Source: Acidobacteriaceae bacterium
GTDB lineage: Bacteria; Acidobacteriota; Terriglobia; Terriglobales; Acidobacteriaceae
Length of the DNA stretch: 32,589 nucleotides
Direction: 5' to 3'
Assembly: GCA_003131635.1 (NCBI GenBank)
Contig: PKVZ01000266.1
Location: 1-32,589, forward strand
Positions 3,492-22,049 of this stretch are shown piece by piece (positions within the stretch are counted from its first letter, which is position 1; each line of letters starts with the position of its first letter). Made by a program: the position numbers and the translations under genes. The notes beneath the pieces were generated by a model. It had not been told where the DNA came from. It did no database searches and was given only the letters and a program-made list of their open reading frames with translations.

Positions 3492-4535
3492 TTGCCTGAC
3501 ACCGCCCAGAGTCGAGAAGGCAACACACCGGTTTCGCAGCCGATCCCGGAAATCGATATCCTCTGGATCACCGCCGGCCTGGGATGCGATGGAGACACCA
3601 TCGCCATGACTGCCGCTACCCAGCCCAGTATCGAAGACATTGTCCTCGGCGCAATGCCCTGGATTCCCAAAGTCCATTTGCATAATCCTTTTCTCGCCAT
3701 GGCGAATGGCGATGATTTCCTGAAGCCTTTTCATCTCGCCGCCGCAGGCAATCTGTCTCCTTTCATCCTGGTCGTCGAAGGCTCGATTCCAAATGAAAAC
3801 AACAAGCAGGAGGGCTACTGGGCGTCTCTTGGTACAAATCAGGAAACCGGCCAGCCGATCACTACCTGCGAATGGATCGATCGCTTGGCGCCCCGCGCCT
3901 GGGCGGTGTTGGCGGCGGGAACTTGTGCGACCTACGGCGGAATCCACGCGATGGAAGGCAATCCTACGGGCTGCATGGGCCTTCCCGATTATCTCGGGTG
4001 GCAGTGGAAGTCAATGGCAAATATCCCGATCGTGTGCGTCCCCGGGTGTCCGGTGCAGCCGGACAACTTCATGGAAACGCTTCTTTACCTTCTGTACATG
4101 GCCTCCGGTCGCGCCCCCATGATTCCGCTCGATGAAGCTCTGCGTCCCACTTGGCTTTTCGGCGCCACCGTTCACGAAGGTTGCGATCGCGGAGGTTATT
4201 ACGAGCAGGGAGAATTTGCCGACGAATACGGATCGAAACTGTGCATCGTAAAGTTGGGATGTTGGGGTCCGGTGGTGCAGTGCAATGTGGGCAAGCGCGG
4301 ATGGATGGGCGGGATCGGCGGGTGTCCGAATATCGGGGGTATTTGCATCGGATGCACCATGCCCGGTTTTCCAGATAAATTCATGCCTTTTATGGACCAG
4401 CCTCCGGGTTCACTTCTGTCATCCAATGCGGTAATGACTTATGGCAGGGCGATCCACGCGTTACGCAGGTTTACGCAAGCTTCGCTAAACAAAGAACCCA
4501 GTTGGCGGCGGAAAGCGTCGAAGCCCGACGTCTAA
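3492..4535 (+). CDS. hhyS: Group 1h [NiFe]-hydrogenase small subunit, paralog 1
   Basis: This is the electron-transfer subunit (347 residues), carrying three Fe-S clusters. The proximal-cluster motif at residues 31-35 reads GCDGD, so C32 is followed by D35 where most hydrogenases have a second Cys. This 3Cys:1Asp pattern is known from the Cupriavidus necator actinobacterial-type hydrogenase. Further ligand candidates are C145 (GTCATYGG), C186 (PGCP), H228/C231, C251, C257, C278, C285 and C288. There is no Tat signal or C-terminal anchor, so it should be cytosolic. It is roughly 75% identical by eye to the second copy at 7111. It differs in having C126 (TTCEW) and C182 (VCVPGC), where the second copy has Asn at both. 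No large subunit follows it; a sensor kinase does. It may share HhyL or act in sensing. The start is TTG, with a strong Shine-Dalgarno. Confidence 0.95.
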   Translation: MPDTAQSREGNTPVSQPIPEIDILWITAGLGCDGDTIAMTAATQPSIEDIVLGAMPWIPKVHLHNPFLAMANGDDFLKPFHLAAAGNLSPFILVVEGSIPNENNKQEGYWASLGTNQETGQPITTCEWIDRLAPRAWAVLAAGTCATYGGIHAMEGNPTGCMGLPDYLGWQWKSMANIPIVCVPGCPVQPDNFMETLLYLLYMASGRAPMIPLDEALRPTWLFGATVHEGCDRGGYYEQGEFADEYGSKLCIVKLGCWGPVVQCNVGKRGWMGGIGGCPNIGGICIGCTMPGFPDKFMPFMDQPPGSLLSSNAVMTYGRAIHALRRFTQASLNKEPSWRRKASKPDV

Positions 4536-4560
4536 CGCCGCGGATTCGCCAGAAGTTTTT

Positions 4561-4565
4561 GAGGT
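4561..4565 (+). promoter_or_regulatory. Shine-Dalgarno deciding the kinase start
   Basis: GAGGT ends five nt before ATG 4571. The further upstream in-frame TTG at 4502, which would overlap hhyS-1 by 34 bp, has no purine-rich site before it, so 4571 is preferred. Confidence 0.55.
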
Positions 4566-4570
4566 CGGTA

Positions 4571-6184
4571 ATGGTACCCGTTGGAAGCAGGGAATTAATT
4601 CCCCAACTCGACCAACTTGAATCGAACCGCGCGGACGTCATCACTCCCGCGGAGGCGGAATCTCTCCTCATTGATCTTGCCGCAGTATTTCTTAGCAACT
4701 CCGCCCGCCAGTCCGCATCCGCTGATTCGCTTAGCGAAGACAAAGAAGATCAGGAAGAGGAGTTCCCGAAGGCCGACGCGATCTATCGCGCTCTGGTCGA
4801 GCAAATTCCCGCCGTAATCTTCATGGCTCACCTCGACCGCGGAATCGGAGAAGCCTACGTCAGTCCTCAAATTGAAGCGAGTCTGGGCTTTTCTCAGGAA
4901 GAATGGCTGGAGGATCCCATTCGCTGGTATCAGCAAATCCATCCCGATGACAAACAGCGCTGGAGCGTTGAGGCGGCTCAGATGTTTCTTTCCGGTACGC
5001 CGCTGCGCTCTGCTTACCGCGTGATCGCACGCGATGGCAGGGTGGTCTGGTTTCATTGCGAAGCCAAGATGATCCGCAAGAAAAGCGGCCGCCCATGGTT
5101 CATCCACGGCATTGGCTTTGACATCACCGAACTCAAGCAGGTAGAGGAAGAGTTGCAGCAGGAACGTAATGTGGCTTCCGCAATTCTTCACACGGTTGGA
5201 TCACTGGTGGTGGTTCTCGATCCGCAGGGCCGCATCGTCCGCTTCAACCGAGCTTGTGAGCAGGTGACCGGATATTCCTTCGCCGAGGTCGAAGGGAAAT
5301 ACCTCTGGGATCTTTGCGTCGTTCCGGAAGAAGCCGGGCGTTTCAAACTGATCGTCGAGCAGTTGCGCGTGGAGAACAGCACAAAAGATTATGAGACTTC
5401 GTTGGTCGGGCGCGATGGTTCACGCCGGCTGATCGCCTGGTCCAGCACAATTCTTCCGGGAGAAAATGGATCTCCCGCCTACATTATCGCAACCGGAATC
5501 GACATCACCGAGCGCAAACGGCTGGAGAAGGCAATCCTCGAAATCAGCGCCGCCGAACAGCGTCGCATCGGTCAGGACCTGCACGACGGTTTGGGGCAAC
5601 ACCTTACCGGGATCGCATTCATGAGCAAGGTTCAGGAACAGAAGCTCGCCGAGAAAGGCCTTGCCGAAGCTACCGAAGCGACCCGGATCGTCGGATTGGT
5701 GAATGAGGCCATCAATAAAACCAGGCAGTTGGCGCATGGGTTGCTTCCCGTGGCTTCCGATGCTCACGGTCTCATGTCAGCCCTGAAACGTTGGGCCGCC
5801 GAGGTAGAAGATCTCTTTCACATTTCTTGTCGCTTGTGCGCGAATGGCCCGGTTCTCATCCATGATGCCAACGTCTCCACTCATCTTTATCGCATCGCTC
5901 AGGAAGCGGTGAATAATGCAATCAGACACGGGCAAGCGAAGAATATCGAAATCAGCCTTTCCGCAAGGCAAGGATACGGAACCCTAAGAATAGAAAACGA
6001 TGGTTCCAGCCTGCCCCAAAACGCCACCAACCGCTCGGGCATGGGTATGCAAATCATGAATTATCGAGCGCGCATGATCGGTGGATCGTTGAAGGTCGAG
6101 ACCGGCGGCAATTTCGGAGTTACCGTCACCTGTCTATTTCCGCTTCCGGACGCCAAAATTAAGATGGAAGAAGGTCGTTCATGA
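4571..6184 (+). CDS. Cytosolic PAS-PAS sensor histidine kinase (NarL-system, HisKA_3 type)
   Basis: A 537-residue kinase without membrane segments. Residues 1-65 are polar with no recognised domain. PAS domain 1 spans about 70-190, ending in the linker G-F-D-I-T-E-L-K. PAS domain 2 spans about 200-318, ending G-I-D-I-T-E-R-K. The HisKA_3 dimerisation helix has the phosphoacceptor H338 in QDLHDGLGQHL. The HATPase domain follows, with N-box EAVNNAIRHG and glycine-box GMGMQI. It shares a 4-bp ATGA overlap with the downstream response regulator, so the two form one translational unit. It starts 35 bp after hhyS-1 ends, which makes co-transcription with that small subunit likely. The PAS domains could sense redox state, a gas or a flavin or heme signal, but no cofactor-binding residue is diagnostic by eye. 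A role in hydrogenase control is inferred from position. Confidence 0.93.
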   Translation: MVPVGSRELIPQLDQLESNRADVITPAEAESLLIDLAAVFLSNSARQSASADSLSEDKEDQEEEFPKADAIYRALVEQIPAVIFMAHLDRGIGEAYVSPQIEASLGFSQEEWLEDPIRWYQQIHPDDKQRWSVEAAQMFLSGTPLRSAYRVIARDGRVVWFHCEAKMIRKKSGRPWFIHGIGFDITELKQVEEELQQERNVASAILHTVGSLVVVLDPQGRIVRFNRACEQVTGYSFAEVEGKYLWDLCVVPEEAGRFKLIVEQLRVENSTKDYETSLVGRDGSRRLIAWSSTILPGENGSPAYIIATGIDITERKRLEKAILEISAAEQRRIGQDLHDGLGQHLTGIAFMSKVQEQKLAEKGLAEATEATRIVGLVNEAINKTRQLAHGLLPVASDAHGLMSALKRWAAEVEDLFHISCRLCANGPVLIHDANVSTHLYRIAQEAVNNAIRHGQAKNIEISLSARQGYGTLRIENDGSSLPQNATNRSGMGMQIMNYRARMIGGSLKVETGGNFGVTVTCLFPLPDAKIKMEEGRS

Positions 6185-6873
6185 TCGCAAAATCCGTTGG
6201 TGGCAATTCCACGGCCAGAAAAAAAATGGTGTTCGTGGTTGACGATCACCCCATTGTGCGGCAGGGCTTGACATTACTGATCAATCAGGAATCGGATCTC
6301 GCGGTGTGTGGTGAAGCCGAAGAAATGCACTCGGCTTTGTCGGCGATTCTAGCCGTGCGCCCAGATATTTTGATTGTGGACATTTCGCTGAACGGCCCGG
6401 ACGGCTTGGAGCTTCTTAAAAACATTCGCCTAAATTCACCGCGTCTGCCTGTCCTGATTCTTTCGATGCATGACGAGTCCATCTACGCGGAGCGGGCGCT
6501 GCGCGCGGGCGCCAACGGTTACATTATGAAGCAGGAGGCCACCGAAAAAGTGTTGGTCGCGCTTCGGCGCATCTTGAGCGGAGAAATCTACGTCAGCGAA
6601 AAGATCGCCAACAGCATGCTGCAACATTACGTTCGCGGCGCCAATCCGTCAGAACATTCTTCGGTCTCCGAGTTGACCGACCGCGAACTGGAAGTCTTCC
6701 GCTTAATTGGGGAAGGTCATGGAACGCGTCAAATTGCCGAGGCGCTGCATCTCAGCGTCAAGACTGTCGAGTCCTATCAGGCGCATATCAAAGAAAAACT
6801 TTCTTTGCGAAGTGCGCGGGAACTCGTACAGCACGCTGTCGAATGGAACGTCCGCGAAAAGACCGCCTCTTAG
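6181..6873 (+). CDS. NarL/FixJ-family response regulator
   Basis: A 230-residue DNA-binding response regulator. The receiver domain runs from about residue 16 to 135, with the acidic pair D21/D22, phosphoacceptor D67 (LIVDISLNG) and the conserved Lys in GYIMKQEA. The LuxR-type HTH is at about 165-225 (LTDRELEVFRLIGEG, then the recognition helix around LSVKTVESYQ). It overlaps the kinase gene by ATGA, so it is almost certainly that kinase's partner. GAAGAAGG upstream serves as Shine-Dalgarno. It sits between two hydrogenase small-subunit genes and just upstream of the 237-bp gap before hhyS-2, so the main hydrogenase operon is the most obvious target. This target is inferred, not shown. Confidence 0.94.
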   Translation: MIAKSVGGNSTARKKMVFVVDDHPIVRQGLTLLINQESDLAVCGEAEEMHSALSAILAVRPDILIVDISLNGPDGLELLKNIRLNSPRLPVLILSMHDESIYAERALRAGANGYIMKQEATEKVLVALRRILSGEIYVSEKIANSMLQHYVRGANPSEHSSVSELTDRELEVFRLIGEGHGTRQIAEALHLSVKTVESYQAHIKEKLSLRSARELVQHAVEWNVREKTAS

Positions 6874-7110
6874 TCAACCTCCTCGACCTGCCCTAAGGGA
6901 TTCCCTGATGTGGTATTTAGGACTTCCTTGGAGAAATAAAACAGGGCCACTGCCCTTGTCCACTTTCGGCAATGGGTCGATTCTATCCTTCGATTTTAAT
7001 TTTTAATTCTAACCGTCAGCGTTACTGGGATTTGCGATCTCCGGCAGTCGCACGCAGGAGTTTGCAATTCAGAGCAATCGGTCTGTGTTTCGGAAAGGAG
7101 CAATCCAGCT
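6874..7110 (+). promoter_or_regulatory. Likely promoter/operator region of the main hhyS-hhyL operon
   Basis: This 237-bp non-coding gap is the largest inside the hydrogenase locus. It contains a hyphenated palindrome AGGGA-T-TCCCT at 6896-6906, embedded in CCCTAAGGGATTCCCT from 6891. A short hairpin, AGGGC-CACT-GCCCT, follows at 6943-6956; it is not followed by a T-run, so it is a weak terminator candidate. An AT-rich stretch lies near 6991-7010. AAAGGAG at 7094-7100 is the Shine-Dalgarno of hhyS-2. I cannot assign a convincing -35/-10 pair. The palindrome is a candidate site for the NarL-type regulator encoded immediately upstream. Confidence 0.45.
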
Positions 7111-8175
7111 ATGGGAACCTCTACTGTTCCGTATGGTCGATCCACCCAAAAGGCTCCAGCGGTCAAAGAAGTTCATATTTTATGGATCACCGCTGGCTTG
7201 GGCTGCGATGGAGACTCAGTCTCGATCACGGCAGCCACTCAACCCAGCGTGGAGGACGTGGTGTTGGGCGCGATCCCTGGCTTACCCAAGGTTCATCTGC
7301 ACAATCCTGTCCTGGCTTACGAAGTCGGGGATGACTTCATGAAGTTTTTTTACGATGCCGAAGAAGGCAGACTGGAACCATTTGTCCTCGTCGTCGAAGG
7401 CTCGATCCCCAACGAGAACATCAAGCGAGAAGGCTACTGGGCGGCCATGGGAACCAATCCCGAGACGAACCAGCCCATCACCACTAACGAGTGGATCGAC
7501 CGGCTTACGCCCAAGGCGCTGGCAGTGATCGCCATCGGAACCTGCGCGACTTACGGCGGTATTCACGCCATGGAGGGAAATCCCACCGGTTGCATGGGCT
7601 TAGCCGACTATCTTGGCTGGGACTGGCGCTCCAAGGCTGGATTACCAATCGTGAACGTCCCGGGATGCCCGGTGCAGCCCGACAACTTTATGGAGACCGT
7701 GCTGTACCTCCTCTATCAGGTTGCTGGTTTAGCGCCCATGATCCCCTTGGACGATCAACTGCGCCCGACCTGGCTTTTCGGCAAGACCGTGCATGAGGGC
7801 TGCGACCGCGCGGGCTACTATGAGCAGGGCGATTTCGCGGAAGTCTACGGCTCTCCGAAATGTATTGTGAAGCTCGGATGCTGGGGCCCGGTGGTCAATT
7901 GCAATGTTCCCAAACGTGGGTGGATGGCGGGCATTGGCGGTTGTCCAAACGTGGGTGGCATTTGCATCGGCTGTACCATGCCAGGTTTCCCCGACAAGTT
8001 CATGCCCTTCATGGACGAACCGCCAGGGGCTCACGTATCGAGCTCGGGGATAAGCGTATATGGCCGCGCCATTCGATCGCTGCGCAGCATTACCCAAAAC
8101 ACCGTCAACAAAGAACCCAAGTGGCGGCACCCGCGGGCGGAACTGACCACCGGTTATCACCCGCGATCTTATTAG
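7111..8175 (+). CDS. hhyS: Group 1h [NiFe]-hydrogenase small subunit, paralog 2 (partner of HhyL)
   Basis: This 354-residue Fe-S subunit passes electrons from the NiFe site of HhyL. It has the group 1h proximal motif GCDGD (C32, D35), GTCATYGG, the PTGC and PGCPVQPD segments, and VHEGCD. The C-terminal Cys-rich stretch (KLGCWGP, GGCPN, ICIGC) binds the medial and distal clusters. No Tat signal is visible, so it should be cytosolic, as is usual for this group. An AAAGGAG lies ten nt upstream of ATG 7111. The gene is followed after 68 bp by hhyL, the standard S-then-L order, so this copy is the obvious structural partner. It lacks the two extra cysteines of the first copy. High-affinity, oxygen-insensitive H2 oxidation is known for the group and is inferred here. 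Confidence 0.97.
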   Translation: MGTSTVPYGRSTQKAPAVKEVHILWITAGLGCDGDSVSITAATQPSVEDVVLGAIPGLPKVHLHNPVLAYEVGDDFMKFFYDAEEGRLEPFVLVVEGSIPNENIKREGYWAAMGTNPETNQPITTNEWIDRLTPKALAVIAIGTCATYGGIHAMEGNPTGCMGLADYLGWDWRSKAGLPIVNVPGCPVQPDNFMETVLYLLYQVAGLAPMIPLDDQLRPTWLFGKTVHEGCDRAGYYEQGDFAEVYGSPKCIVKLGCWGPVVNCNVPKRGWMAGIGGCPNVGGICIGCTMPGFPDKFMPFMDEPPGAHVSSSGISVYGRAIRSLRSITQNTVNKEPKWRHPRAELTTGYHPRSY

Positions 8176-8243: not shown

Positions 8244-10040
8244 ATGAGCACCATCACTGCGCCGACGAAAGACGTTCCCAGCAAATCGAGGAATTTGGTT
8301 GAAATGAATTGGGACCCGATCACGCGCATCGTCGGCAGCCTGGGGATCTTCACCAAGATTGACTTCGACGCCAGGAAAGTTGCCGAGTGTCACAGTACGT
8401 CTTCCATCTTTCGCGGATACAGCATTTTCATGAAAGGCAAAGACCCGCGCGATGCCCACTTCATCACCAGCCGCATCTGCGGTATCTGTGGCGACAACCA
8501 TGCCACTTGCGCGACCTACGCGCAAAACATGGCATTCGGAGTAAGGCCACCCGACATCGCGGAATGGATCGTCAATCTCGGCGAAGCCGCCGAGTACATG
8601 TTCGATCACAACATTTTCCAGGACAACCTGGTGGGTGTTGATTTCTGCGAGCAGATGGTGAAAGAAACTAACCCGAAAGTTTTGGCCAAGGCCGAATCCA
8701 CTCCGGCCCCGCACTCGAATGAACACGGCTTCCGCACCATCGCAGATATTATGCGGGCGCTCAATCCCTTCACCGGATCTTTTTACCTTGAAGCTCTGCA
8801 GATGAGCCGCATGACCCGCGAGATGTTCTGCCTCATGGAAGGCCGCCACGTGCATCCTTCCACGCTTTATCCCGGCGGAGTCGGAACCGTACCCACCGTG
8901 CAACTTTTCACCGATTACATCGTCCGCCTGATGAAGTACGTCGAGTTCATGAAGAAGGTTCTCCCGCTGCACGACGACTTATTCGACTTCTTCTACGACG
9001 CATTGCCGGGATACGAAGAAGTTGGCCGCCGCCGCATTCTGCTGGGCTGCTGGGGTTCGTTTCAGAATCCCAAGGTTTGTGACTACAAGTACGAACACAT
9101 GACGGAATGGGGACGCGCTATGTACGTCACCCCCGGCGTAGTCGTCGACGGCAAGTTGCTCACAACTGACTTAGTCGACATCAACTTGAATATGCGGATT
9201 TTGCTGGGCAGTTCGTATTACGACGATTGGAAAAACTCGGAAACTTTTGTGAAAACCGATCCTCTCGGCAATCCGGTCGACAAGAACCATCCCTGGAACC
9301 AAACCACAATCCCTCGGCCGCAGAAGCGCGATTTCAACGGCAAGTACACATGGGTAATGTCGCCACGCTGGCTGGATAAACGCACCGGCGATCACCTGGC
9401 TCTCGATACCGGCGGCGGGCCGATTGCTCGGTTGTGGGCAACGGCCCTCGCCGGAATCGTCGACATCGGCTACATCAAAGCCACCGGCAACAGCGTGAAG
9501 ATTTATCTGCCGAAAACCATGTCGAAGCCCGAGGTCGAGTTCGAGTGGAAGATTCCGAAGTGGAGCAATGCCATCGAGCGCGACCGCGCACGAACTTACT
9601 TCCAGGCCTACGCTGCTGGGTGCGCGCTTTACTTCGCGGAGCGAGCGATGGAAGAGCTTCACGCCGGCAAGACCAAGACCTGGTCTGATTTCAAAGTGCC
9701 GGAAGAGGCCATCGGCTGTGGCTTTCACGAAGCAGTCAGAGGCGTTCTTTCTCATCATGTGGTGATCCGCAAAGGCAAGATCGCCAATTATCATCCGTAT
9801 CCTCCGACACCATGGAATGCCAATCCGCGGGATATTTACGGCACGCCCGGTCCGTATGAAGATGCGGTGCAGAATACTCCCATCTTCGAGGAGAACGGTC
9901 CCGATAAGTTCAAAGGTATCGACATTATGCGCGCCGTGCGTAGCTTTGATCCGTGCTTGCCCTGCGGCGTGCACATGTATCTCGGCGGTGGAAAGGTTCT
10001 CAAGACCCAACATTCGCCGATGTTTGGCGTGCAGCGTTAA
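8244..10040 (+). CDS. hhyL: Group 1h [NiFe]-hydrogenase large (catalytic) subunit
   Basis: This 598-residue subunit holds the NiFe(CN)2CO site that splits H2. The N-terminal ligand motif RICGICGDNHATC gives C79 and C82. The C-terminal motif DPCLPCGVH gives C571 and C574. After H577 there are 21 more residues, the tail normally removed by a nickel-dependent protease once nickel is inserted; such a protease gene is present at 13078. The start is ATG 8244, with AAAGGAG eight nt upstream. The same frame stays open back to 7860, inside hhyS-2, but that extension is spurious. The length and the L1/L2 forms match the actinobacterial-type (1h, formerly group 5) enzymes, which can oxidise atmospheric H2 during starvation. 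That affinity is a family property, not something the sequence proves. Confidence 0.97.
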   Translation: MSTITAPTKDVPSKSRNLVEMNWDPITRIVGSLGIFTKIDFDARKVAECHSTSSIFRGYSIFMKGKDPRDAHFITSRICGICGDNHATCATYAQNMAFGVRPPDIAEWIVNLGEAAEYMFDHNIFQDNLVGVDFCEQMVKETNPKVLAKAESTPAPHSNEHGFRTIADIMRALNPFTGSFYLEALQMSRMTREMFCLMEGRHVHPSTLYPGGVGTVPTVQLFTDYIVRLMKYVEFMKKVLPLHDDLFDFFYDALPGYEEVGRRRILLGCWGSFQNPKVCDYKYEHMTEWGRAMYVTPGVVVDGKLLTTDLVDINLNMRILLGSSYYDDWKNSETFVKTDPLGNPVDKNHPWNQTTIPRPQKRDFNGKYTWVMSPRWLDKRTGDHLALDTGGGPIARLWATALAGIVDIGYIKATGNSVKIYLPKTMSKPEVEFEWKIPKWSNAIERDRARTYFQAYAAGCALYFAERAMEELHAGKTKTWSDFKVPEEAIGCGFHEAVRGVLSHHVVIRKGKIANYHPYPPTPWNANPRDIYGTPGPYEDAVQNTPIFEENGPDKFKGIDIMRAVRSFDPCLPCGVHMYLGGGKVLKTQHSPMFGVQR

Positions 10041-10150: not shown

Positions 10151-10714
10151 ATGACAGATGACAAAGATTTCCAGATAAAAGTTCAGCGTATCGGAGAGTT
10201 AGTCCGCGACTTGGAAAACATCGCGGACCCGGAGTCTCGCGCGAGCGCAAAGACGTTAGTCCAGCTCCTTCTGGATTTGCATTCCGTCGGTTTAGAGCGA
10301 GTGATGGAAATCGTCGCCAGCAGCGGCGATTCAGGGCAACGCACTATCGATGACTTGGGTCGTGATCCTCTGGTCCGCAGCATCCTGATCCTCTATGGTC
10401 TTCACCCTTTGGACATCGAGAGTCGTGTGATACAGGCTGTCGAGAAGATTCAACCCCGGGTGCGCAAGGGTGGTGGTGAATTAGAGTTAGTCAGCTTTGA
10501 AAGTAACGTAGTTCGCCTGCACCTGCAAGTTATCGGCCATGCATGTGGATCGACAGCGAAGACTCTCAAGTCCATGGTCGAGGAGGCACTCTATGAGGCT
10601 GCACCCGACATGAACGCCTTGTCGATTGAGGGCCTCGAGGAAGAGGCCGGTTCGGCGGGATTTGTGCCGCTAGGCAAGTTGGGCGGCGCGATTGCAAACG
10701 CCCCTGTGTCTTGA
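10151..10714 (+). CDS. NifU-like protein of hydrogenase clusters (no CxxC)
   Basis: A 187-residue protein. Residues about 1-95 are helical and unassigned. Residues about 95-165 resemble the NifU C-terminal scaffold domain (RKGGGELELV, then VIGHACGSTAKTLK). In true NifU/Nfu proteins the matching site is CxxC, binding a transient Fe-S cluster. Here the first Cys is Gly and only the second remains, giving GHACGST. I recall this same form in NifU-like proteins encoded beside group 1h hydrogenases, so it looks like a subfamily trait rather than damage. A role in Fe-S delivery to the small subunit is inferred from similarity and position. The Shine-Dalgarno is poor, and the start ATG 10151 was chosen because it gives the full open frame after the hairpin. 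Confidence 0.8.
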   Translation: MTDDKDFQIKVQRIGELVRDLENIADPESRASAKTLVQLLLDLHSVGLERVMEIVASSGDSGQRTIDDLGRDPLVRSILILYGLHPLDIESRVIQAVEKIQPRVRKGGGELELVSFESNVVRLHLQVIGHACGSTAKTLKSMVEEALYEAAPDMNALSIEGLEEEAGSAGFVPLGKLGGAIANAPVS

Positions 10715-10780
10715 GCGATTCGTCTTAAGTCGCAGCAATTGAACCAGCACGCAGTTAAATAAGTTGATCACAGGCAAAGA

Positions 10781-11437
10781 ATGAAAGCAGTCCAACCGGG
10801 ATACGAGAGCGCATTCGGATCGCTCCGCCAGTTCATCCGGCCGCGCAAGCGGGATGCGGAGCGCTGTGAGCTTTGCAGCGCCGAAGTCGTATCCGATCAC
10901 CCTCACCTGATTGAGCCCGGCACCCGGAAGCTGCTGTGTACCTGTAACGCCTGCGCCATTTTATTCAGTGGCATGGGGACAAAGTACAAGCGTGTGCCCC
11001 GGCGCGTTCTGGCCCTGGCGGATTTTCATCTCTCCGATGGCCAGTGGGAAAGCCTTATGGTGCCCATCAGCATGGCGTTCTTTTTTCGCAGCACACCCGA
11101 CGCGAGAGTGGTCGCATTCTATCCAAGCCCTGCCGGCGCAACAGAATCTCTGCTGCCGCTTGAAACTTGGAAGGATATCGAAGATGCAAATTCTATCCTT
11201 CTTGAAATGGAATCTGACGTCGAAGCTCTCCTGGTCAATCGCGTTGGACATGCGCGCGGATTTACCGCTCCGGAGTATTATGTGCTCCCCATCGATGAGT
11301 GTTACAAACTAGTTGGCCTGATTCGCGCCAACTGGCACGGCCTGTCCGGTGGAACCGAAGTCTGGCAGCAAATTGGCGGCTTCTTCGATGGATTAAAGCA
11401 ACGGGCCACGGTGATTAAAGAGGAAGCGAATGCCTGA
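10781..11437 (+). CDS. Hydrogenase-linked conserved protein, DUF5947-like, with zinc-ribbon motifs
   Basis: This 218-residue protein is probably soluble. Near residues 28-66 it has CELC and CTCNAC, spaced like a metal-binding ribbon. The rest is a mixed alpha/beta domain with a conserved-looking FFRSTPDARVVAFYPSPAGATES segment and a late PIDECYKLVGLIR-W segment. From memory it matches the DUF5947 family, seen in group 1h hydrogenase operons of Actinobacteriota; I cannot run the search to confirm. It overlaps the next gene by 8 bp (ATGCCTGA), which points to translational coupling. A metal-dependent assembly or electron-transfer role is possible but unproven. Confidence 0.75.
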   Translation: MKAVQPGYESAFGSLRQFIRPRKRDAERCELCSAEVVSDHPHLIEPGTRKLLCTCNACAILFSGMGTKYKRVPRRVLALADFHLSDGQWESLMVPISMAFFFRSTPDARVVAFYPSPAGATESLLPLETWKDIEDANSILLEMESDVEALLVNRVGHARGFTAPEYYVLPIDECYKLVGLIRANWHGLSGGTEVWQQIGGFFDGLKQRATVIKEEANA

Positions 11438-12080
11438 CCTCAGCTTCCAAATCGAGAAGGCAGAACCGCAGCGCTTCACCGTGGCGCCCACGCTGCTGTT
11501 CAAGCTTCGCATCACCAACGCCACACCGGATGAAACCGTACATTCGGTCGCGTTGCGCTGTCAGATTCAGCTGGAGGTGACGCGAAGGCAATATACTCCG
11601 GACGATCAAGGCCATCTTAAAGATCTTTTCGGCGAAGCGGAACGCTGGAGCCAGACTTTGAAAACCATGCTGTGGACTCATGCCAGCGTGGTCGCCCCCG
11701 CCTTTACCGACAACACTTTGGTCGACGTTCCCGTGCCCTGCACATTCGATTTCAATGTGGCGGCAACGAAATATTTTTACGGCCTGGCCGATGGCGATGT
11801 TCCGTTGAATTTTCTGTTCAGTGGAACCGTTTTCTATGCCGACGGAGAAGGAAATCTGCAGGTGGCGCCAATTCCCTGGGATAAAGAGGCGCGTTTCCGC
11901 CTTCCTGTGAAAGCCTGGCACGAAATGATGGATATCTATTATCCCAACGGCGCCTGGCTTTGTTTGCGCCGCGATGTCTTCGAACGAATTTATCAATATA
12001 AGGTCGAGCACGGAATCCCCACCTGGGAGCAAGCGTTGGAGAGCTTGCTTCCCGCGCTTGAAGAAACGGTGAAGCGATGA
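11430..12080 (+). CDS. Hydrogenase-linked conserved protein, DUF6084-like
   Basis: A 216-residue protein starting MPDLSFQIEKAEPQRF, then VAPTLLFKLRITN. It is beta-rich at the start and ends in a helical segment. There is no signal peptide, membrane segment or Cys motif. It resembles DUF6084, which accompanies DUF5947 in actinobacterial hydrogenase operons (recognised from memory). GAGGAA lies just upstream of ATG 11430. The gene overlaps its left neighbour by 8 bp and its right neighbour by 4 bp (ATGA). That tight coupling suggests the three products work together or in fixed ratio. Function is unknown. A scaffold or chaperone for the hydrogenase is only one possibility. Confidence 0.75.
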   Translation: MPDLSFQIEKAEPQRFTVAPTLLFKLRITNATPDETVHSVALRCQIQLEVTRRQYTPDDQGHLKDLFGEAERWSQTLKTMLWTHASVVAPAFTDNTLVDVPVPCTFDFNVAATKYFYGLADGDVPLNFLFSGTVFYADGEGNLQVAPIPWDKEARFRLPVKAWHEMMDIYYPNGAWLCLRRDVFERIYQYKVEHGIPTWEQALESLLPALEETVKR

Positions 12081-13081
12081 ATACCAAACTCATCGACGCC
12101 ATCGCCAAAGCCGTGCTCTACGAAGGGTACATGCTCTATCCCTACCGTCCGTCTTCGGTGAAGAATCGTCAGCGCTTCAATTTTGGTGTCCTCTATCCGC
12201 AGTCTTACAGCGAAGCGCAGACTGGCTCGGATGCCTCGACGATGCAAACGGAATGTCTGATCCAGGGCGGCTCTCCGGCGGTCGAAGCAAGAGTACGCTT
12301 CCTGAAGTTAGTAGCTCGAACCGTGCGCGACCTGGCCGATCCCGCCATGATGCCATCGGCGCCTTGGCAAGAGGCCATCGAGTTTGAAGTGACCGTGCCG
12401 GAACGCAATTTGCATGCACTGACTGCAGAACCGTTGCAGTGGAGTTTTGTTTTCCCCGCAAAAGAGGAAACGGAGTCTTTGCGCGATGAAAGCGGCGATC
12501 ATGTCGGGAGGGTCGATCGGAAACAAGAATCGGTTCACGGTAGAGTCGAAATAAGCGCGATGCGCGCAGCCGACGATCTATTCAAACTGCAGGTACGCGT
12601 GACTAACCTCACTCCCTGGGAGGGCAACGCCGATCAGACTAGCCGGGACTCAGCGCTGATGCGGTCGCTCGTCTCTGCCCACACTTTGCTGGGCGTTGCG
12701 GACGGTCAATTCGTGTCCCTGCTCGAGCCGCCGCAGGATCTGCAGACTCTCGCCGCCAGCTGCGAAAACATTGGAGCGTGGCCTGTTCTGGTCGGAACGG
12801 AAGGCGAGTGCGACACCATGCTCGCCTCACCCATCATTCTTTACGATTACCCGCAAATTGCCCCGGAGAGCCCGGGCGACTTGTTCGACGGGACGGAGAT
12901 TGATGAGATCCTCGCGCTGCGCATCATGACCATGACGGACGACGAGAAGCGCGAGATGCGAAATACCGATGTCCGCGCCCGCAGGATTCTCGAAAGAACC
13001 GAAGCTCTACCGATCGAGCACCTCGCGAAGCTTCACGGAACCCTCAGAGACTTGCGCTCATTGAAAGAGGAGATGTCATGA
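12077..13081 (+). CDS. Conserved hydrogenase-linked protein of unknown function
   Basis: This 334-residue protein has no signal peptide, transmembrane segment or recognised catalytic motif. Its N-terminus, with AVLYEGYMLYPYRPSSVKN and then FNFGVLYP, is distinctive and looks conserved in style. The segment near residues 205-275 (LVSAHTLLGVADGQFVSLLEPP, then GTEGECDTMLASPIILYDYPQIAPESPGD) includes several acidic residues. The C-terminus is charged and helical. The gene overlaps both neighbours by the 4-bp ATGA, so it is translated as part of the DUF-protease block. I believe similar proteins occur at this place in group 1h operons of other phyla, but this needs a profile search. No function is assigned. 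Confidence 0.75.
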   Translation: MNTKLIDAIAKAVLYEGYMLYPYRPSSVKNRQRFNFGVLYPQSYSEAQTGSDASTMQTECLIQGGSPAVEARVRFLKLVARTVRDLADPAMMPSAPWQEAIEFEVTVPERNLHALTAEPLQWSFVFPAKEETESLRDESGDHVGRVDRKQESVHGRVEISAMRAADDLFKLQVRVTNLTPWEGNADQTSRDSALMRSLVSAHTLLGVADGQFVSLLEPPQDLQTLAASCENIGAWPVLVGTEGECDTMLASPIILYDYPQIAPESPGDLFDGTEIDEILALRIMTMTDDEKREMRNTDVRARRILERTEALPIEHLAKLHGTLRDLRSLKEEMS

Positions 13082-13944
13082 ACGAATGGGAATGGCATCT
13101 CCTGGAAGCCAAGAAGCCGATGGACGACCTGCGTATTTCCGGCATTGGTGTGCGTCCCGGCAGCCGCGTCAAGCTTCGTCCTCGCGCGGGCGGGGATGTC
13201 ATGGACATTGCTCTTACGGGCAAGACTGCGATCATTGAGTCGATCGAGCAGGATTACGAGGGCAAGATTCATCTCGGTATCGTCGTCGATGATGATCCAG
13301 GTAGAGATATTGGCATGTTGCGCCAACCTGGCCACCGTTTTTTCTTTACTCCGGAGGAAGTTGAGCCTCTGGCTCCCGGCGACGATGACAAAACCCATGC
13401 GGTGAAACCGCCCAGCATTCTCGTCGCCGGTATCGGCAACATTTTTCTTGGCGACGACGCTTTCGGGGTCGAAGTGGCGCGCCGCTTGTCCAGTCGCGAG
13501 TTGCCGGCAACCGTTCGAGTGACCGACTTCGGTATCCGAGGCTACGACCTGGCCTACGCTTTACTTGACGGATACGACACAACCATTCTGCTGGATGCAT
13601 GTCCGCGGGGCGAACCAGCGGGCACTCTCTACGTCATTGAACCCGATCTCAGTGACCTTGGCGGTCCCGATGAGCAGCAAAGTGCGGTCGAAGCCCATAG
13701 TATGAACCCCTTGAATGTGCTGCGGCTGGCCAGTTCCATGGGTCCTTTGAAACGAGTGCTTCTTGTCGGCTGTGAACCCGGCACGCTCGGCCCGGAAGAA
13801 GGTCAGATGGGCCTGAGCGAGCCGATCGCAGCTGTCATTGATGAAGCGGTGAAATTAGTCGAATCGCTGATCAAAAAAATATTGATCGGGGATGAAGTGT
13901 TGCAGCAGGACCTGGCAGCAAGACCTGGCAGCAAAACTGAATGA
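13078..13944 (+). CDS. Hydrogenase maturation protease with extra N-terminal domain
   Basis: This 288-residue endopeptidase probably cuts the 21-residue tail from HhyL after nickel insertion. Residues about 113-270 are the HyaD/HybD/HycI-type domain: GIGNIFLGDDAFG, LLDACP and AHSMNP. D127, D173 and H207 align with the nickel-binding E16, D62 and H93 of E. coli HybD. Residues 1-100 are an additional domain (GSRVKLRPRAGGD, IESIEQDYEGKIHLGIVVDDD, PGHRFFF) absent from classical 150-170-residue proteases. It may recognise HhyL or sibling proteins. The start overlaps the previous gene by ATGA, with GGAG upstream. The last residues are affected by a 13-bp tandem duplication (separate entry). Confidence 0.92.
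   Translation: MNEWEWHLLEAKKPMDDLRISGIGVRPGSRVKLRPRAGGDVMDIALTGKTAIIESIEQDYEGKIHLGIVVDDDPGRDIGMLRQPGHRFFFTPEEVEPLAPGDDDKTHAVKPPSILVAGIGNIFLGDDAFGVEVARRLSSRELPATVRVTDFGIRGYDLAYALLDGYDTTILLDACPRGEPAGTLYVIEPDLSDLGGPDEQQSAVEAHSMNPLNVLRLASSMGPLKRVLLVGCEPGTLGPEEGQMGLSEPIAAVIDEAVKLVESLIKKILIGDEVLQQDLAARPGSKTE
13909..13934 (+). repeat. 13-bp perfect tandem duplication at the end of the protease gene
   Basis: GACCTGGCAGCAA occurs twice in a row (13909-13921 and 13922-13934). Because 13 is not a multiple of three, it shifts the reading frame of the tail: the present end is LAARPGSKTE, while one copy would give LAAKLNETN and a stop nine bp later. The catalytic domain is not touched. Confidence 0.85.
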
Positions 13945-14182: not shown

Positions 14183-14767
14183 ATGAGACGACTAATGGGA
14201 CCATCGACGGAGACTAGCGTTCACTACGTCACTGACGCGAGAGCTAGCGAGTTCACGGTGCAAGTTTTCTCTGGAGGATTGCTGTCGGTGCTCGGGCACA
14301 GTCCCAAGATCGCTATTCGCGATTTCTCGGGCGCAGCAGAAGTCGACCCGGAGGACATCGCGCATTCCTCCCTCCAAGTCACAATCAAAGCGGATTCTTT
14401 AGCAGTCAGGGACGACATTTCCGACAAAGACCGGCATGAAATCGAGCGCGCCATGAAGCAGGATATTCTTGAGACTGCGGAATATCCGGAGATTATTTAC
14501 GAGTGCTCGAATCTGGCTGCCACCAAGGCCGGCGAAGGTCAATATTCGGTCACACTGAATGGCAATTTGACCGTGCACGGTGTAACTCACTCGCAGATTG
14601 TCACTGCGCGAGTCGCCGTCACCGAGGATTCCTTGCGCGCATTCGGAAAGTTTTCACTGCTGCAGACCGACTATGATTTGAAACTTGCATCTGTGGCCGG
14701 AGGCGCGCTGAAGGTGAAAGACGAATTAAAGTTTTCGTTCAATATCCTGGCTCGAAGGAAAGAGTAA
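14183..14767 (+). CDS. YceI-family lipid/isoprenoid-binding protein lacking a signal peptide
   Basis: This 194-residue protein is a lipocalin-like barrel of the YceI family, whose members bind polyisoprenoids including quinone-type molecules. Family marks include FSGGLLSVLGHSPKIAIRDFSG, DRHEIERAMKQDILETAEYPEI and LTVHGVTH. Most YceI proteins are exported. Here the N-terminus (MRRLMGPSTETSVHYV) has no hydrophobic segment, so the protein should stay in the cytosol with the hydrogenase. ATG 14183 sits almost on the purine-rich GAGGG. ATG 14195, four codons later and with better spacing, is a fair alternative. The position between the membrane peptide and hypC suggests a role linked to the enzyme, perhaps binding menaquinone; this is inference. 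Confidence 0.85.
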   Translation: MRRLMGPSTETSVHYVTDARASEFTVQVFSGGLLSVLGHSPKIAIRDFSGAAEVDPEDIAHSSLQVTIKADSLAVRDDISDKDRHEIERAMKQDILETAEYPEIIYECSNLAATKAGEGQYSVTLNGNLTVHGVTHSQIVTARVAVTEDSLRAFGKFSLLQTDYDLKLASVAGGALKVKDELKFSFNILARRKE

Positions 14768-14771
14768 CTCT

Positions 14772-15065
14772 ATGTGCCTCGCCATACCGGGACAAGTCAT
14801 CGAGCTTTTTCCCGACCAGCCGAATATCGCGGTGATCGATGTAGTCGGTGTCCGGCGCAAGGTTGACTTGGGACTCTTGCAGGACAACTTGCCGCTGAAG
14901 GGAGACTGGGTGCTCATCCATGTCGGCTTCGCCATGAGCAAGATCAGCGAACAAGACGCTCTTGACCAGATGCGCACGCTGAGAGCGTTGGGCGAAGCGG
15001 AAGCGGCTATGCAAGAAATTCAAGGCTACGGCCTGGAAAACACAGAGAACCCGGAAGCCTCGTGA
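14772..15065 (+). CDS. hypC: Hydrogenase maturation chaperone HypC
   Basis: HypC (97 residues) works with HypD to carry iron while the CN and CO ligands are added, then delivers it to the large subunit. The N-terminal MCLAIPG supplies the essential C2, and the VLIHVGFAMSKISE stretch is classic HypC/HybG. Length is normal for the family. It starts four bp after the YceI stop and precedes hypD by 34 bp, so hypCDE is contiguous here. There is no second hypC in the window, so this one presumably serves both small/large-subunit combinations. Confidence 0.96.
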   Translation: MCLAIPGQVIELFPDQPNIAVIDVVGVRRKVDLGLLQDNLPLKGDWVLIHVGFAMSKISEQDALDQMRTLRALGEAEAAMQEIQGYGLENTENPEAS

Positions 15066-15099
15066 AGCACCTCAAAACTAGTTTGCCAAAGGATCGAGC

Positions 15100-16230
15100 A
15101 TGAAGTTTGTCGACGAATTTCGCGAGCCCGAGGTCATCACCAGAACCTCGGCCGAGATCCGCCGTCTCGCTGATCCCAGCCGCCATTACCGCATCATGGA
15201 AGTATGCGGCGGACACACTCATGCCATCTACCGCTTCGGCCTCAAAGATCTCCTGCCATCGAACATCGAACTCATTCACGGTCCGGGTTGCCCCGTCTGC
15301 GTGCTGCCGATGGGCAGGATCGATGATGGCCTGGCCATCGCACAGAATCCCGAGGTCATCTTCACCGCCTTCGGTGACATGATGCGGGTGCCGGGCACTC
15401 TGGGCAGCCCTTTAGAGCATAAGGCGCGCGGCATGGACGTGCGCATTGTTTACTCTCCTGCTGATGCCCTCAAGTTGGCCGAAAAAAATCCCGACAGGCA
15501 CGTGATGTTTTTCGCCATTGGATTTGAGACTACAGCTCCATCGACGGCGCTCACGCTGCTGCGAGCAAAGGCTCAAGGCGTCCACAATTTTTCGGTGTTC
15601 TGCAATCATGTCACGATTATTCCTGCCATCCGCGCAATTCTCGATTCTCCCGACATGCGCATCGATGCATTCATCGGGCCGGGACACGTGTCCACGGTGA
15701 TCGGATGCCGGCCGTACGAGTGGATCGCGAAGAATGAAAATAAGCCGCTTGCCGTCTCCGGATTCGAACCGCTGGATATTCTGCAGTCCATCGTGATGGT
15801 GCTGCGCCAACTGAAAGCGGATGAGGCCAGGATCGAGAATCAATACAAGCGCGTGGTTCCTTGGGAAGGCAATCGCGCCGCTCTTCGGGCCATGGCGGAA
15901 GTCTTCGAGTTGCGGCCCTATTTTGAATGGCGGGGACTCGGCTTCATTTCTCAATCAGCCTTACGCCTGCGGGAAAGTTATGCGGAATGGGATGCGGAGC
16001 GGCGCTTCGAGATTCCTGGAGTGCGAGTAACCGATCCCAAGGCCGCGCAATGCGGAGAAGTGCTCAAAGGAGTGCTGAAGCCTCATCAATGCAAGCTCTT
16101 TGGCAACGAATGCACCCCCGAACATCCGATTGGTGCACTCATGGTTTCATCCGAGGGATCATGCGCAGCATACTTCAATTACGAACACCGCAAAACGGCG
16201 ATGGTGACCAGCATCAGTTCGGGGGCTTGA
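15100..16230 (+). CDS. hypD: Hydrogenase maturation protein HypD
   Basis: HypD (376 residues) is the Fe-S scaffold on which Fe(CN)2CO is assembled with HypC. Visible motifs are EVCGGHTHAIYRFGL, HGPGCPVCVLP, FAIGFETTAPSTAL, FCNHVTIIPA and GPGHVSTVIG. The C-terminal cysteines (QCGEVLKG, HQCKLFGNEC, SEGSCAAYF) bind the [4Fe-4S] cluster. It follows hypC and overlaps hypE by four bp (TTGA). AAAGGAT precedes ATG 15100. Full length and all expected motifs are present. Confidence 0.97.
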   Translation: MKFVDEFREPEVITRTSAEIRRLADPSRHYRIMEVCGGHTHAIYRFGLKDLLPSNIELIHGPGCPVCVLPMGRIDDGLAIAQNPEVIFTAFGDMMRVPGTLGSPLEHKARGMDVRIVYSPADALKLAEKNPDRHVMFFAIGFETTAPSTALTLLRAKAQGVHNFSVFCNHVTIIPAIRAILDSPDMRIDAFIGPGHVSTVIGCRPYEWIAKNENKPLAVSGFEPLDILQSIVMVLRQLKADEARIENQYKRVVPWEGNRAALRAMAEVFELRPYFEWRGLGFISQSALRLRESYAEWDAERRFEIPGVRVTDPKAAQCGEVLKGVLKPHQCKLFGNECTPEHPIGALMVSSEGSCAAYFNYEHRKTAMVTSISSGA

Positions 16231-17294
16231 ACGTTACCGAGGCCGCCGCTCCGCCGCAAGCCCAACCGGCTAAGGTCCGCTTCCGCGAACCGCAGATCGA
16301 GATGGCCCACGGAGCCGGAGGTAAAGCCAGCCGCAGGCTCGTGGAAGGCCTCTTTGCTCCTCTCCTTTTTGCATCGCCTTCCGAACCATTAGGAGACGCC
16401 GCTCATCTTGATTTTGGCGGAACGAAGATCGCCATCACTACAGACAGCTTCGTCGTCAAGCCCCTGAGCTTTCCCGGCGGCTCCATCGGAGAACTTGCAG
16501 TGAACGGAACGATAAACGATCTCGCCGTTTCGGGAGCCAGAGCCGAGGCCATGGTCGCCACTTATGTGCTGGAAGCCGGATTACCCACGCCTGTGCTTGA
16601 GGCTGAGGTGCGTGCCATGGGATCCGCGGCGCGACGAGCCGGAGTTACGATTGCGGGCGGCGACACCAAGGTTGTCGAGCATGGCAAAGCCGATTCCATG
16701 TATATCTCCACAACCGGCATTGGACGGCCTATTCATGGTTTGAAGATCGATCCAAAAACGGTCCGTGCGGGAGATAGGATTCTGCTCTCTGGCCCGATCG
16801 GCGATCATGGCATCACAATTCTCTTAGCGCGCGGAGAACTCGATCTGGAAGCCGACCTCCGCTCCGATACTCGTTCTGTTCTGCCCCTAGTTGATGCTAT
16901 GGCCCACGAAGCTGGGCCCGGCATCCGCTGGATGCGCGACCCGACGCGTGGCGGCGTGGCCACATCGCTGAACGAACTTGCCCGCGACTGCGGACTCGGC
17001 ATTGTTCTCATGGAAGAAGCGATTCCAGTTCGCGACGCCGTGCGCGGCGCCTGTGAACTGTTAGGCCTCGATCCCTTGCACATTGCGAATGAAGGCCAGT
17101 TCCTCGCCGTGGTTGCACCGGAATACGCGGACGCCGCACTTAACGCACTGAGCGCGGCGCCCGGCGGTGAGGATGCGCAGATTATCGGAGAAGTCCGCGA
17201 ACAGCCGTGCGGCGCGGTTCTAGTCACCACGCGTTATGGTGGCAGCAGGATTGTGGATATGCTGGTCGGTGATCCCCTCCCGCGCATTTGTTAA
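16227..17294 (+). CDS. hypE: Hydrogenase maturation protein HypE (TTG start)
   Basis: HypE (355 residues) dehydrates the C-terminal thiocarboxamide, made by HypF, to thiocyanate, which gives the CN ligands. It shows EMAHGAGGKASRRLVEGLF, TDSFVVKPLSFPGGSIGELAVNGT split around the ATP site, AGGDTKVV, MRDPTRGGVAT and the invariant end PRIC with the modified terminal Cys. The frame is open back to 15927, but that would overlap hypD by 300 bp. The only start codon near the hypD stop is TTG 16227, overlapping it as TTGA. This is consistent with translational coupling. The 30 residues before HGAGG are longer than usual and Ala/Pro-rich. Confidence 0.95.
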   Translation: MNVTEAAAPPQAQPAKVRFREPQIEMAHGAGGKASRRLVEGLFAPLLFASPSEPLGDAAHLDFGGTKIAITTDSFVVKPLSFPGGSIGELAVNGTINDLAVSGARAEAMVATYVLEAGLPTPVLEAEVRAMGSAARRAGVTIAGGDTKVVEHGKADSMYISTTGIGRPIHGLKIDPKTVRAGDRILLSGPIGDHGITILLARGELDLEADLRSDTRSVLPLVDAMAHEAGPGIRWMRDPTRGGVATSLNELARDCGLGIVLMEEAIPVRDAVRGACELLGLDPLHIANEGQFLAVVAPEYADAALNALSAAPGGEDAQIIGEVREQPCGAVLVTTRYGGSRIVDMLVGDPLPRIC

Positions 17295-17313
17295 GATTTG
17301 TTTGGTTGGTGCC

Positions 17314-18498
17314 ATGGCCACAATATGTGGGCTGGCAGCTCAAGTGGAAGAGCGCCTGCTCGCGCGGAACCGGATCATCGAAGATTTTTTTTCTCGGGAA
17401 ACACCCCGCTTGGCGGAGGCCTGCCGCTCGATGTCCGAGCGCTTTCTCAGCGGAGGCCGCTTACTCGCATTTGGACGCGGTCCGTATGCAACCGATGCCC
17501 AGCATGTTTCCGTTGAATTTGTTCATCCTGTGATCGTCGGAAAGCGCGCGCTTCCGGCCCTCGATCTTTCCATGCTTTTCCGTCCGTGGTTGGAGGCGAT
17601 TCTTCATCCCGAAGATATCGTCATGGGATTCGGGCCCCCTGAGGGAGACGCTGAGATTCGTTCTGCTTTGAATTTTGCCCATGTACGAAAAGCGTTGACT
17701 TTCGCTCTTCCTGGCTTGCAAGGTTCCTATGCCGTCGAAGCATTCACGCCGGATCCATTTATTCATCAGGAAATGATTGAAATTCTTTACCACACATTGT
17801 GGGAGAGCGTACACGTATTTCTGGAACATCGGGAGTTGGGCCACGACGTTGGAGACGCCGGCTTTCTTTACCCGTTTCTTGGCCAGGAAAAGCAACAAAC
17901 CCCTGACTTACTGTCGGAAGTTGCCGCCTCGATTGGGATGAAGGTGCAGGACGATTCGAGACTGCGCGCACAAGTGGCGCGTGAGCAGGCTGAACAAATA
18001 AGTAGCGCGACGCTGGCGATTCATGAGCGCCTCGCAAAAGGCGGCAAGCTTATTCTGTTCGGCAATGGCGGATCGGCGACAGACGCGAATGATTTTGCCA
18101 TCGATTGCATATTGCCTCCGGCCGGTTATCGCCCCATTCCGGCCGTCTCGCTTTCGCTGGAACCCGCGAACATCACGGCCGTCGCCAATGACGTGGGCAC
18201 GGAAGTGATTTTTCTGCGGCAACTCATCGCGCAGGCCCATCCGGAGGATGTCGCCATCGCTATTTCCACCAGCGGCGGCTCCCGTAATATTGTCATGGCG
18301 CTGGAAGAAGCCCGCAAGCGGAAATTGTTGACGGTTGCGCTGCTGGGTTATGACGGTGGCGAGATTCGGCGCAGAGCTCTGGCCGACTTTCCACTGGTCG
18401 TCCAATGCGACTACATCCCTCGCATTCAGGAAGTGCAAGCGTCTATCTACCACATCCTCCGCGATACGTTGGAGGTGCTAAGCCGTGGCCAAGCTTGA
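17314..18498 (+). CDS. Tandem SIS-domain protein (GmhA-like, two domains)
   Basis: This 394-residue protein has two sugar-isomerase (SIS) folds. The C-terminal one (about 240-394) closely follows phosphoheptose isomerase GmhA: LILFGNGGSATDA, AVANDVGTEVIF, AIAISTSGGSRNI. The N-terminal one (about 47-165) has LLAFGRGPYATDAQHVSVEF but lacks the STSG loop (it reads MGFGPPEG), so it may be a degenerate partner. GmhA is about 190 residues and works as a tetramer, so the fusion looks like a built-in pseudo-dimer. ATG 17314 begins 19 bp after hypE; an upstream in-frame start at 17236 would overlap hypE by 59 bp and is not preferred. Why a sugar isomerase-like protein sits among hyp genes is unknown; I recall SIS genes in other group 1h clusters. 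Confidence 0.85.
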   Translation: MATICGLAAQVEERLLARNRIIEDFFSRETPRLAEACRSMSERFLSGGRLLAFGRGPYATDAQHVSVEFVHPVIVGKRALPALDLSMLFRPWLEAILHPEDIVMGFGPPEGDAEIRSALNFAHVRKALTFALPGLQGSYAVEAFTPDPFIHQEMIEILYHTLWESVHVFLEHRELGHDVGDAGFLYPFLGQEKQQTPDLLSEVAASIGMKVQDDSRLRAQVAREQAEQISSATLAIHERLAKGGKLILFGNGGSATDANDFAIDCILPPAGYRPIPAVSLSLEPANITAVANDVGTEVIFLRQLIAQAHPEDVAIAISTSGGSRNIVMALEEARKRKLLTVALLGYDGGEIRRRALADFPLVVQCDYIPRIQEVQASIYHILRDTLEVLSRGQA

Positions 18499-18721: not shown

Positions 18722-18723
18722 GA

Positions 18724-21003: not shown

Positions 21004-21005
21004 CC

Positions 21006-22030: not shown

Positions 22031-22049
22031 GCGGGGCTATCGGATCTCC

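Follow-up and report, generated by a model that had tools for sequence, protein, structure and literature searches.

The window analysed here, positions 1 to 32,589 of contig PKVZ01000266.1 of an Acidobacteriaceae bacterium (assembly GCA_003131635.1), encodes two small subunits of a group 1h (atmospheric-H2) [NiFe]-hydrogenase, HhyS1 and HhyS2, with a two-component system between them and one large subunit, HhyL, behind the second. Our analysis points to hhyS1, the adjoining PAS1-PAS2 histidine kinase, and its NarL-type regulator as a dedicated signalling unit for this hydrogenase. With moderate confidence, we consider it probable that HhyS1 and a shared HhyL together make an H2 or redox gauge that is read by the PAS1 domain of the kinase and controls hhyS2-hhyL. 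The signalling unit as such, PAS1 as the partner of HhyS1, and the target promoter are well supported by sequence comparison.

All of these genes lie on the + strand. The gene hhyS1 (3492..4535) encodes a kinase-clade group 1h small subunit of 347 residues that lacks a C-terminal LTTGY tail, and it starts with TTG, preceded by a Shine-Dalgarno-like GGAGGGG. After 35 bp it is followed by the histidine kinase gene (4571..6184), which overlaps the gene of the NarL/FixJ-type response regulator (6181..6873) by 4 bp. Pfam searches found PAS_3, PAS, HisKA_3, and HATPase_c in the kinase, and Response_reg and GerE (LuxR-type) in the regulator, which is the NarL/FixJ pairing of a HisKA_3-HATPase_c kinase with a REC-GerE regulator. 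PAS1 is encoded at 4775..5122 and PAS2 at 5147..5503. The kinase is predicted to be soluble; its AlphaFold2 model has good domains, but since their arrangement is uncertain (predicted local distance difference test 75, predicted template modelling score 0.36), we used it for the fold only. Further downstream are hhyS2 (7111..8175), encoding a catalytic small subunit of HofK type with a C-terminal LTTGY tail, and hhyL (8244..10040), encoding the group 1h large subunit. HhyL is the only large subunit of this group in the genome, as the sole further PF00374 match, located elsewhere, is weak and partial. An earlier sequence-only reading of the window had described the order small subunit-kinase-regulator-small subunit-large subunit, with a 35-bp gap before a PAS-PAS kinase and a large subunit following the second HhyS only. 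The coordinates and the domain search confirm each of these points: hhyL adjoins hhyS2, and no large subunit directly follows hhyS1.

The two small subunits are 74% identical across 327 residues without a gap (about 75% had been estimated by eye), and the best solved relative of both is HofK from Cupriavidus necator (5AA5). Each retains all twelve candidate cluster ligands, as the sequence-only reading had claimed. Specifically, the iron-sulphur (Fe-S) ligands are C32, the proximal Asp D35, C145, C186, H228, C231, C251, C257, C264, C278, C285, and C288. With HofK/HhyS as best match, the proximal Asp in a CDGD motif, and the full 4Fe4S ligand set, both are group 1h small subunits. HhyS2 is encoded together with hhyL and the DUF5947-DUF6084-protease set; HhyS1 is encoded in the same cluster here and away from it in G519, G465, and G075 (G, L, and C numbers are our handles for genomes, loci, and contigs). 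The ligands persist in 40 acidobacterial HhyS1, except that one sequence lacks C288, and of 143 positions without variation in catalytic HhyS, HhyS1 retains 124. The differences between the two kinds are specific. Gly267 is present in 40/40 HhyS1 and 0/99 catalytic HhyS, further HhyS1-specific residues are I92, W137, Q263, S331, and H322, and the LTTGY tail occurs in 1/40 HhyS1 as against 93/99 catalytic HhyS. With the ligands and most invariant positions kept, HhyS1 is, as judged by its sequence, not decaying. In seven relatives (L016, L020, L058, and L117–L120) Glu replaces the proximal Asp, and this replacement is confined to one part of the kinase clade.

In the HhyS tree, a branch with a support of 100/99 separates all kinase-linked sequences from the ordinary hhyL-linked HhyS, including HofK and those of Mycobacterium and Methylocystis. 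The tree is unrooted; the outgroups are too distant for rooting (branches of 7–10), hence we do not claim which side is ancestral. The kinase-linked clade spans Acidobacteriota, Planctomycetota, Verrucomicrobiota, Chloroflexota, and Myxococcota. HhyS1 appears to be a duplicated, kinase-adapted small subunit of the group 1h hydrogenase.

A scan of a species-level genome collection, searches covering the phylum (297 genomes) and the class (399 genomes), and a gene-order analysis yielded 48 kinase-clade HhyS loci. The order hhyS1-kinase-regulator-hhyS2, which the sequence-only reading had suggested looking for in related genomes, is kept in 30 of them and mostly continues into hhyL. This first order, from hhyS1 to hhyL, is that of Acidobacteriota; L058 has the same hhyS1-kinase-regulator order with an insertion ahead of hhyS2. 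In a second order, hhyS1-kinase is apart from hhyS2-hhyL, either on one contig (G519, at 6.50 Mb versus 3.78 Mb) or on different contigs (G465 and G075), and the planctomycete locus L015 and the verrucomicrobial locus L032 are similar. A third order, hhyS1-kinase-hhyL, is found in L013, whose genome has no second HhyS. In the fourth, hhyS and hhyL are followed at some distance by the PAS1 kinase; it is seen in basal clade members from Planctomycetota, Chloroflexota, and Myxococcota (L018, L022, L024, and L033), whose HhyL form a clade of their own (support 98/98). Wherever the sequence continues for more than about 1.3 kb beyond a kinase-clade HhyS, a PAS1 kinase is encoded nearby, usually directly after it. 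Because G519, G465, and G075 have hhyS1-kinase away from hhyS2-hhyL, the linkage does not merely result from the clustering of the hydrogenase genes. Its recurrence in the collection, phylum, and class genomes also rules out an accident of a single genome. That hhyS1, the kinase, and the regulator form a conserved system rather than a chance assembly is therefore well supported by the gene orders. Among cultured bacteria, Edaphobacter aggregans and E. lichenicola carry kinase-linked HhyS.

We then inspected which part of the kinase accompanies HhyS1. With the kinase divided into its parts for the comparison, PAS1 accompanies kinase-clade HhyS in each of the gene orders, with scores of 118–235 bits; the one in L012 is incomplete. 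PAS2 is absent or exchanged in several relatives (missing in L008, L009, and L140). The catalytic part is exchanged as well: it is HisKA_3 in most, HisKA in L013, L015, L022, L024, L032, and L127, HisKA plus a receiver in L018 and L115, and HisKA_2/HWE in L033 and L038. Across 27 aligned kinases, conservation of at least 90% is reached in 56% of the columns of PAS1, 11% of those of PAS2, and 18% of those of the catalytic part. Sensor domains are usually less conserved than catalytic parts, and PAS1 has the reverse pattern. It also bears marks that generic relatives lack, namely Trp at alignment position 64 (98%, versus Val) and Phe at position 17.

The distribution of PAS1 follows that of HhyS1. 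In the phylum, PAS1 at 70% identity or more is present in 9/9 HhyS1 genomes and in 0/288 others (p = 2e-17), the next best match having at most 49% identity. In the class, it is present in 27 genomes, comprising 24/24 with HhyS1 versus 3/375 without (p = 1e-35); the latter three are G422, where a contig ends, G643, and G644. Among the carriers of group 1h HhyS, the counts are 24/24 with HhyS1 versus 2/18 without (p = 9e-10). These p values are from Fisher tests and overstate the certainty, because the genomes are not independent. The comparison shows PAS1 as the specific and apparently invariant partner of HhyS1, with the rest of the kinase swapped freely.

The kinase could instead sense something unrelated and regulate the hydrogenase, hhyS1 being a passenger or a decaying duplicate kept by linkage. 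The solitary PAS1 kinases of G644, G643, and G609 would fit this explanation, and so would G552, which retains the kinase, regulator, and operator without hhyS1 and PAS1. Against it, the ligands are kept in 40 sequences, a single clade extends over five phyla, and the PAS1 kinase is retained away from the operon. The loss of both hhyS1 and PAS1 in G552 also speaks against a passenger, although one deletion could explain the joint loss because the two adjoin. We consider a passenger hhyS1 very improbable. The sequence-only reading had held that a linked function would be unlikely if HhyS1 copies were scattered without the kinase or had lost ligands; neither was found, the PAS1 kinase being nearby wherever more than about 1.3 kb follows HhyS and the ligands being kept.

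The loci with unusual PAS1 histories are as follows. G644 lacks group 1h hydrogenases altogether and has a lone PAS1 kinase with a regulator (L204, 8167-10460); a relic or a re-used sensor are candidate readings of this pair. The second PAS1 kinase of G609 (L206, G609:C116, 8718-9989) is solitary, has 423 residues, and is about 30% identical to the window kinase in its catalytic part. At L157 (G552:C59, 4921-6009), hhyS1 and PAS1 are both gone, and the kinase, regulator, operator, and hhyS2-hhyL are kept.

Alignment of the gaps between regulator and hhyS2 uncovered a 17-bp palindrome, ATCRGGGAWTCCCYGAT as family consensus and CTAAGGGATTCCCTGAT in the window, where it is located upstream of hhyS2 (6893..6909, assigned to neither strand) and is the predicted operator of the regulator. 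Where the regulator is orthologous (33 loci), the best match upstream of hhyS2 has on average 1.5 mismatches compared with 6.1 after shuffling, with two or fewer in 25 and three or fewer in 30. The motif holds 1.55 bits per column versus 0.12 in the upstream flank (31 non-redundant sites). The palindrome was also looked for upstream of hhyS1 and is absent there; the best matches ahead of 46 kinase-clade HhyS have 5.9 mismatches (shuffled, 6.2), which is the random level. The same values were obtained upstream of 59 hhyS2 without this regulator. Among the latter, only L023 departs clearly; it is on a contig of G643, a genome with its kinase-regulator pair on another contig, as expected for a regulator acting in trans. 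A regulon search allowing up to two mismatches in 19 genomes returned few extra matches, nearly all with two mismatches and differing between genomes. We therefore claim no further target.

Since the palindrome precedes hhyS2 and not hhyS1, the most likely target of the regulator is the operon of the enzyme, not its own. Control of the hhyS2-hhyL promoter through the predicted operator is well supported by this comparison. Conserved columns suggest a candidate promoter at 6956..6984 (+), with a -35-like CTTG(T) and a -10-like GATTCT separated by a 17-nucleotide spacer; taken alone, this promoter prediction is weak. The palindrome is about 45 bp ahead of the conserved -35-like element, and such a position would suit an activator. 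At four loci with distant regulators (L016, L117, L118, and L045), TACGTAG repeats occur exactly 22 bp apart before hhyS2. They may be a different operator for a different regulator family and, coming from few sequences, are a lead only.

The operator also bears on a further explanation, in which the main role of HhyS1 is electron transfer, as an alternative subunit directing HhyL to another acceptor, and the kinase and regulator merely switch between the two forms. The full Fe-S relay of HhyS1 would suit this role, the loss of the LTTGY tail (1/40 versus 93/99) looks as if a different partner were met, and HhyS1 is the sole small subunit in G063. However, the predicted operator lies before hhyS2 and not hhyS1, which makes the regulator unlike a switch of hhyS1, and the conservation of PAS1 with HhyS1 through kinase swaps argues for a direct contact with the kinase. 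We consider a mere change of acceptor quite improbable.

Kinase-clade HhyS probably still pairs with HhyL, chiefly because in the third and fourth gene orders it is encoded together with a large subunit. That HhyS1 can serve HhyL is most strongly hinted at by G063, which is 99% complete and encodes one intact HhyL with the RICGIC and DPCLPC motifs kept. This hhyL (L167, G063:C172, 415-2214) is on a 73-kb contig, where the upstream region has an unrelated kinase gene and lacks hhyS, and the palindrome is found 192 nucleotides ahead of it with 2 mismatches (0/5000 shuffles). The sole group 1h small subunit of G063 is an HhyS1 in an hhyS1-kinase-regulator unit on another contig. The product of hhyL is the probable shared partner of both small subunits.

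Alternatively, HhyS1 might act without HhyL, as a stand-alone three-cluster Fe-S protein on PAS1 that reports the cytoplasmic redox state or O2 for hydrogenase control. In its favour, hhyS1-kinase is far from hhyL in G519, G465, G075, and others, the linkage to PAS1 is tighter than that to hhyL, the proximal ligand varies between Asp and Glu within the clade, and G666 has no HhyL. Yet HhyL is encoded somewhere in each of the other HhyS1 genomes examined, the clade includes HhyS-HhyL loci, HhyS-kinase-HhyL loci, and G063, and the 124 of 143 invariant positions amount to conservation of a whole subunit beyond its ligands. Hydrogenase small subunits also normally need their own large subunit for stable folding. 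We regard a stand-alone HhyS1 as unlikely.

For the preferred gauge of HhyS1 and HhyL, we infer the pairing of the two, H2 as the signal, and an electron flow to PAS1. HhyS1 would most likely dimerise with the sole HhyL to give a second, HhyS1:HhyL form, in which reducing equivalents derived from H2 pass from HhyL to HhyS1. PAS1 would read the redox state of the HhyS1 Fe-S clusters by contact or electron transfer, and this would set the kinase activity. The kinase would then phosphorylate the regulator, which would bind the palindrome at 6893-6909 and control the hhyS2-hhyL operon. The catalytic subunit would be common to enzyme and gauge, with the small subunit deciding its role, and a feedback loop would follow from sharing HhyL because the regulator sets the HhyL supply. 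Stated more broadly, one HhyL would harvest energy when paired with HhyS2 and gauge H2 when paired with HhyS1, and PAS1, as a dedicated PAS subfamily, would be the reader of electrons or contact in at least four kinds of kinase and five phyla; we give this picture an even chance. The sequence-only reading had offered two roles for HhyS1, an alternative subunit exchanged onto HhyL, or a source of Fe-S redox input for the kinase. We favour a fusion of both over electron transfer alone.

Several observations weigh against this gauge. G063 is a single case, its HhyS1 carries Glu at the proximal Asp ligand, and its linked regulator is of a distant kind despite the palindrome before hhyL; regulators at such a distance (about 30% identity) do not share the palindrome. 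In G666, a draft metagenome-assembled genome that may miss genes, HhyS1-kinase is present without a PF00374 match. PAS1 kinases occur without HhyS1 in G644, in G643, and as the second copy in G609. No cofactor site is recognisable by sequence in PAS1, and the nearest solved PAS domains are generic. Finally, the mirror-tree distance correlation between HhyS1 and PAS1 (0.83, partial 0.57) is no higher than that between HhyS1 and HhyS2 (0.83), and for this reason we do not use it as proof. Of the co-occurrence and co-evolution of HhyS1 and kinase that had been put forward, the former is borne out (24/24 and 9/9), whereas the distance correlation sets HhyS1-PAS1 no higher than HhyS1-HhyS2.

Aside from the signalling unit, the window carries on the + strand the accessory genes of the hydrogenase (10151..13944), encoding a NifU-like protein, DUF5947, DUF6084, an unknown 334-residue protein, and the maturation protease. 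They are followed by genes for YceI, HypC, HypD, HypE, a SIS protein, HypF, HypA, HypB, and a NicO-type nickel transporter (14183..22850, +). The order of the group 1h accessory genes is that of C. necator pHG1. The 334-residue protein (12077-13081) is kept in most group 1h operons examined and has no Pfam family. Two long open reading frames are also without a Pfam match, at 477-1550 (357 residues, +) and 27251-29422 (723 residues, -).

Soil bacteria with group 1h hydrogenases are a main sink of atmospheric H2, and the regulation of these hydrogenases is largely unknown. Now that a kinase-linked HhyS branch has a defined partner domain and a predicted operator, this regulation can be tested in cultured strains. 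If the proposed mechanism is true, a high-affinity group 1h hydrogenase would for the first time be the basis of an H2-sensing system, and the cell could gauge H2 at atmospheric level. Counts of hhyS genes or undifferentiated 'hhyS' transcripts would mix the enzyme with the presumed gauge. The analysis suggests that soil Acidobacteria turned a part of their H2-scavenging enzyme into a gauge controlling the amount of the enzyme.

Among known systems, HofKG (5AA5) and the HhySL of Mycobacterium, Streptomyces, and Pyrinomonas have the same family, ligands, and downstream accessory genes as here. Unlike hhyS1, however, hofKG and hhySL in C. necator, Methylocystis, and Mycobacterium have no kinase encoded beside them. 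Papers on acidobacterial group 1h hydrogenases describe one hhyL and its operon, and their text names no kinase or second hhyS (PMC5900883, PMC8027828). HydDB places kinase-linked sensing in group 2b and, putatively, in [FeFe] group C1, and lists group 1h as a scavenger (PMC5037454). In the literature searched, of which coverage was partial, we found no prior description of a kinase-linked HhyS1 system.

On the kinase side, PAS1-PAS2 of the AlphaFold2 model superposes on the tandem PAS of FixL (8js5/8js6) with a template modelling score of about 0.8 over the target and 22% identity. By eye, the FixL heme histidine is absent in both PAS domains, a conserved W131 being near it in PAS1 and Phe in PAS2, and PAS2 is absent in some kinase relatives, unlike in FixL. 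Regulators of DosR/NarL/FixJ type likewise combine Response_reg and GerE and work with a HisKA_3 kinase. The DosR box is an inverted repeat with GGGA...TCCC halves, like the predicted operator. In contrast to DosR-type systems, the Pfam search found no GAF domain in the window kinase, and the 17-bp operator occurs before hhyS2 or the orphan hhyL only. DosST/DosR modulates hhy in M. smegmatis (PMC13098282).

A functional parallel is HoxBC-HoxJ-HoxA of C. necator (HupUV-HupT-HupR elsewhere), of group 2b, which likewise has a cytoplasmic [NiFe] small subunit beside a PAS histidine kinase and a regulator acting on the cell's own energy-yielding hydrogenase, as proposed here. Its accepted input is continuous H2 turnover (PMC10073562; HydDB class 2b, PMC5037454). 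The parts differ. HoxB is 32% identical to HhyS1, which groups with HofK, far from the HoxB/HupU lineage; HoxA is annotated as sigma-54-dependent, whereas the window regulator is of NarL type; and the HoxJ kinase is of HisKA type. A close kinship between PAS1 and HoxJ was rejected, as the HoxJ PAS aligns at 22% with PAS2 and not with PAS1. HoxBC also has its own adjoining large subunit, whereas HhyS1 has none adjacent and the genome has one HhyL. Of the group 2b traits, the window thus has the adjacent PAS histidine kinase, but neither the HoxB/HupU lineage nor an adjacent large subunit of its own. The idea of a HoxBC-HoxJ-like logic without close homology therefore holds: the unit would work like HoxBC-HoxJ and is built from other families.

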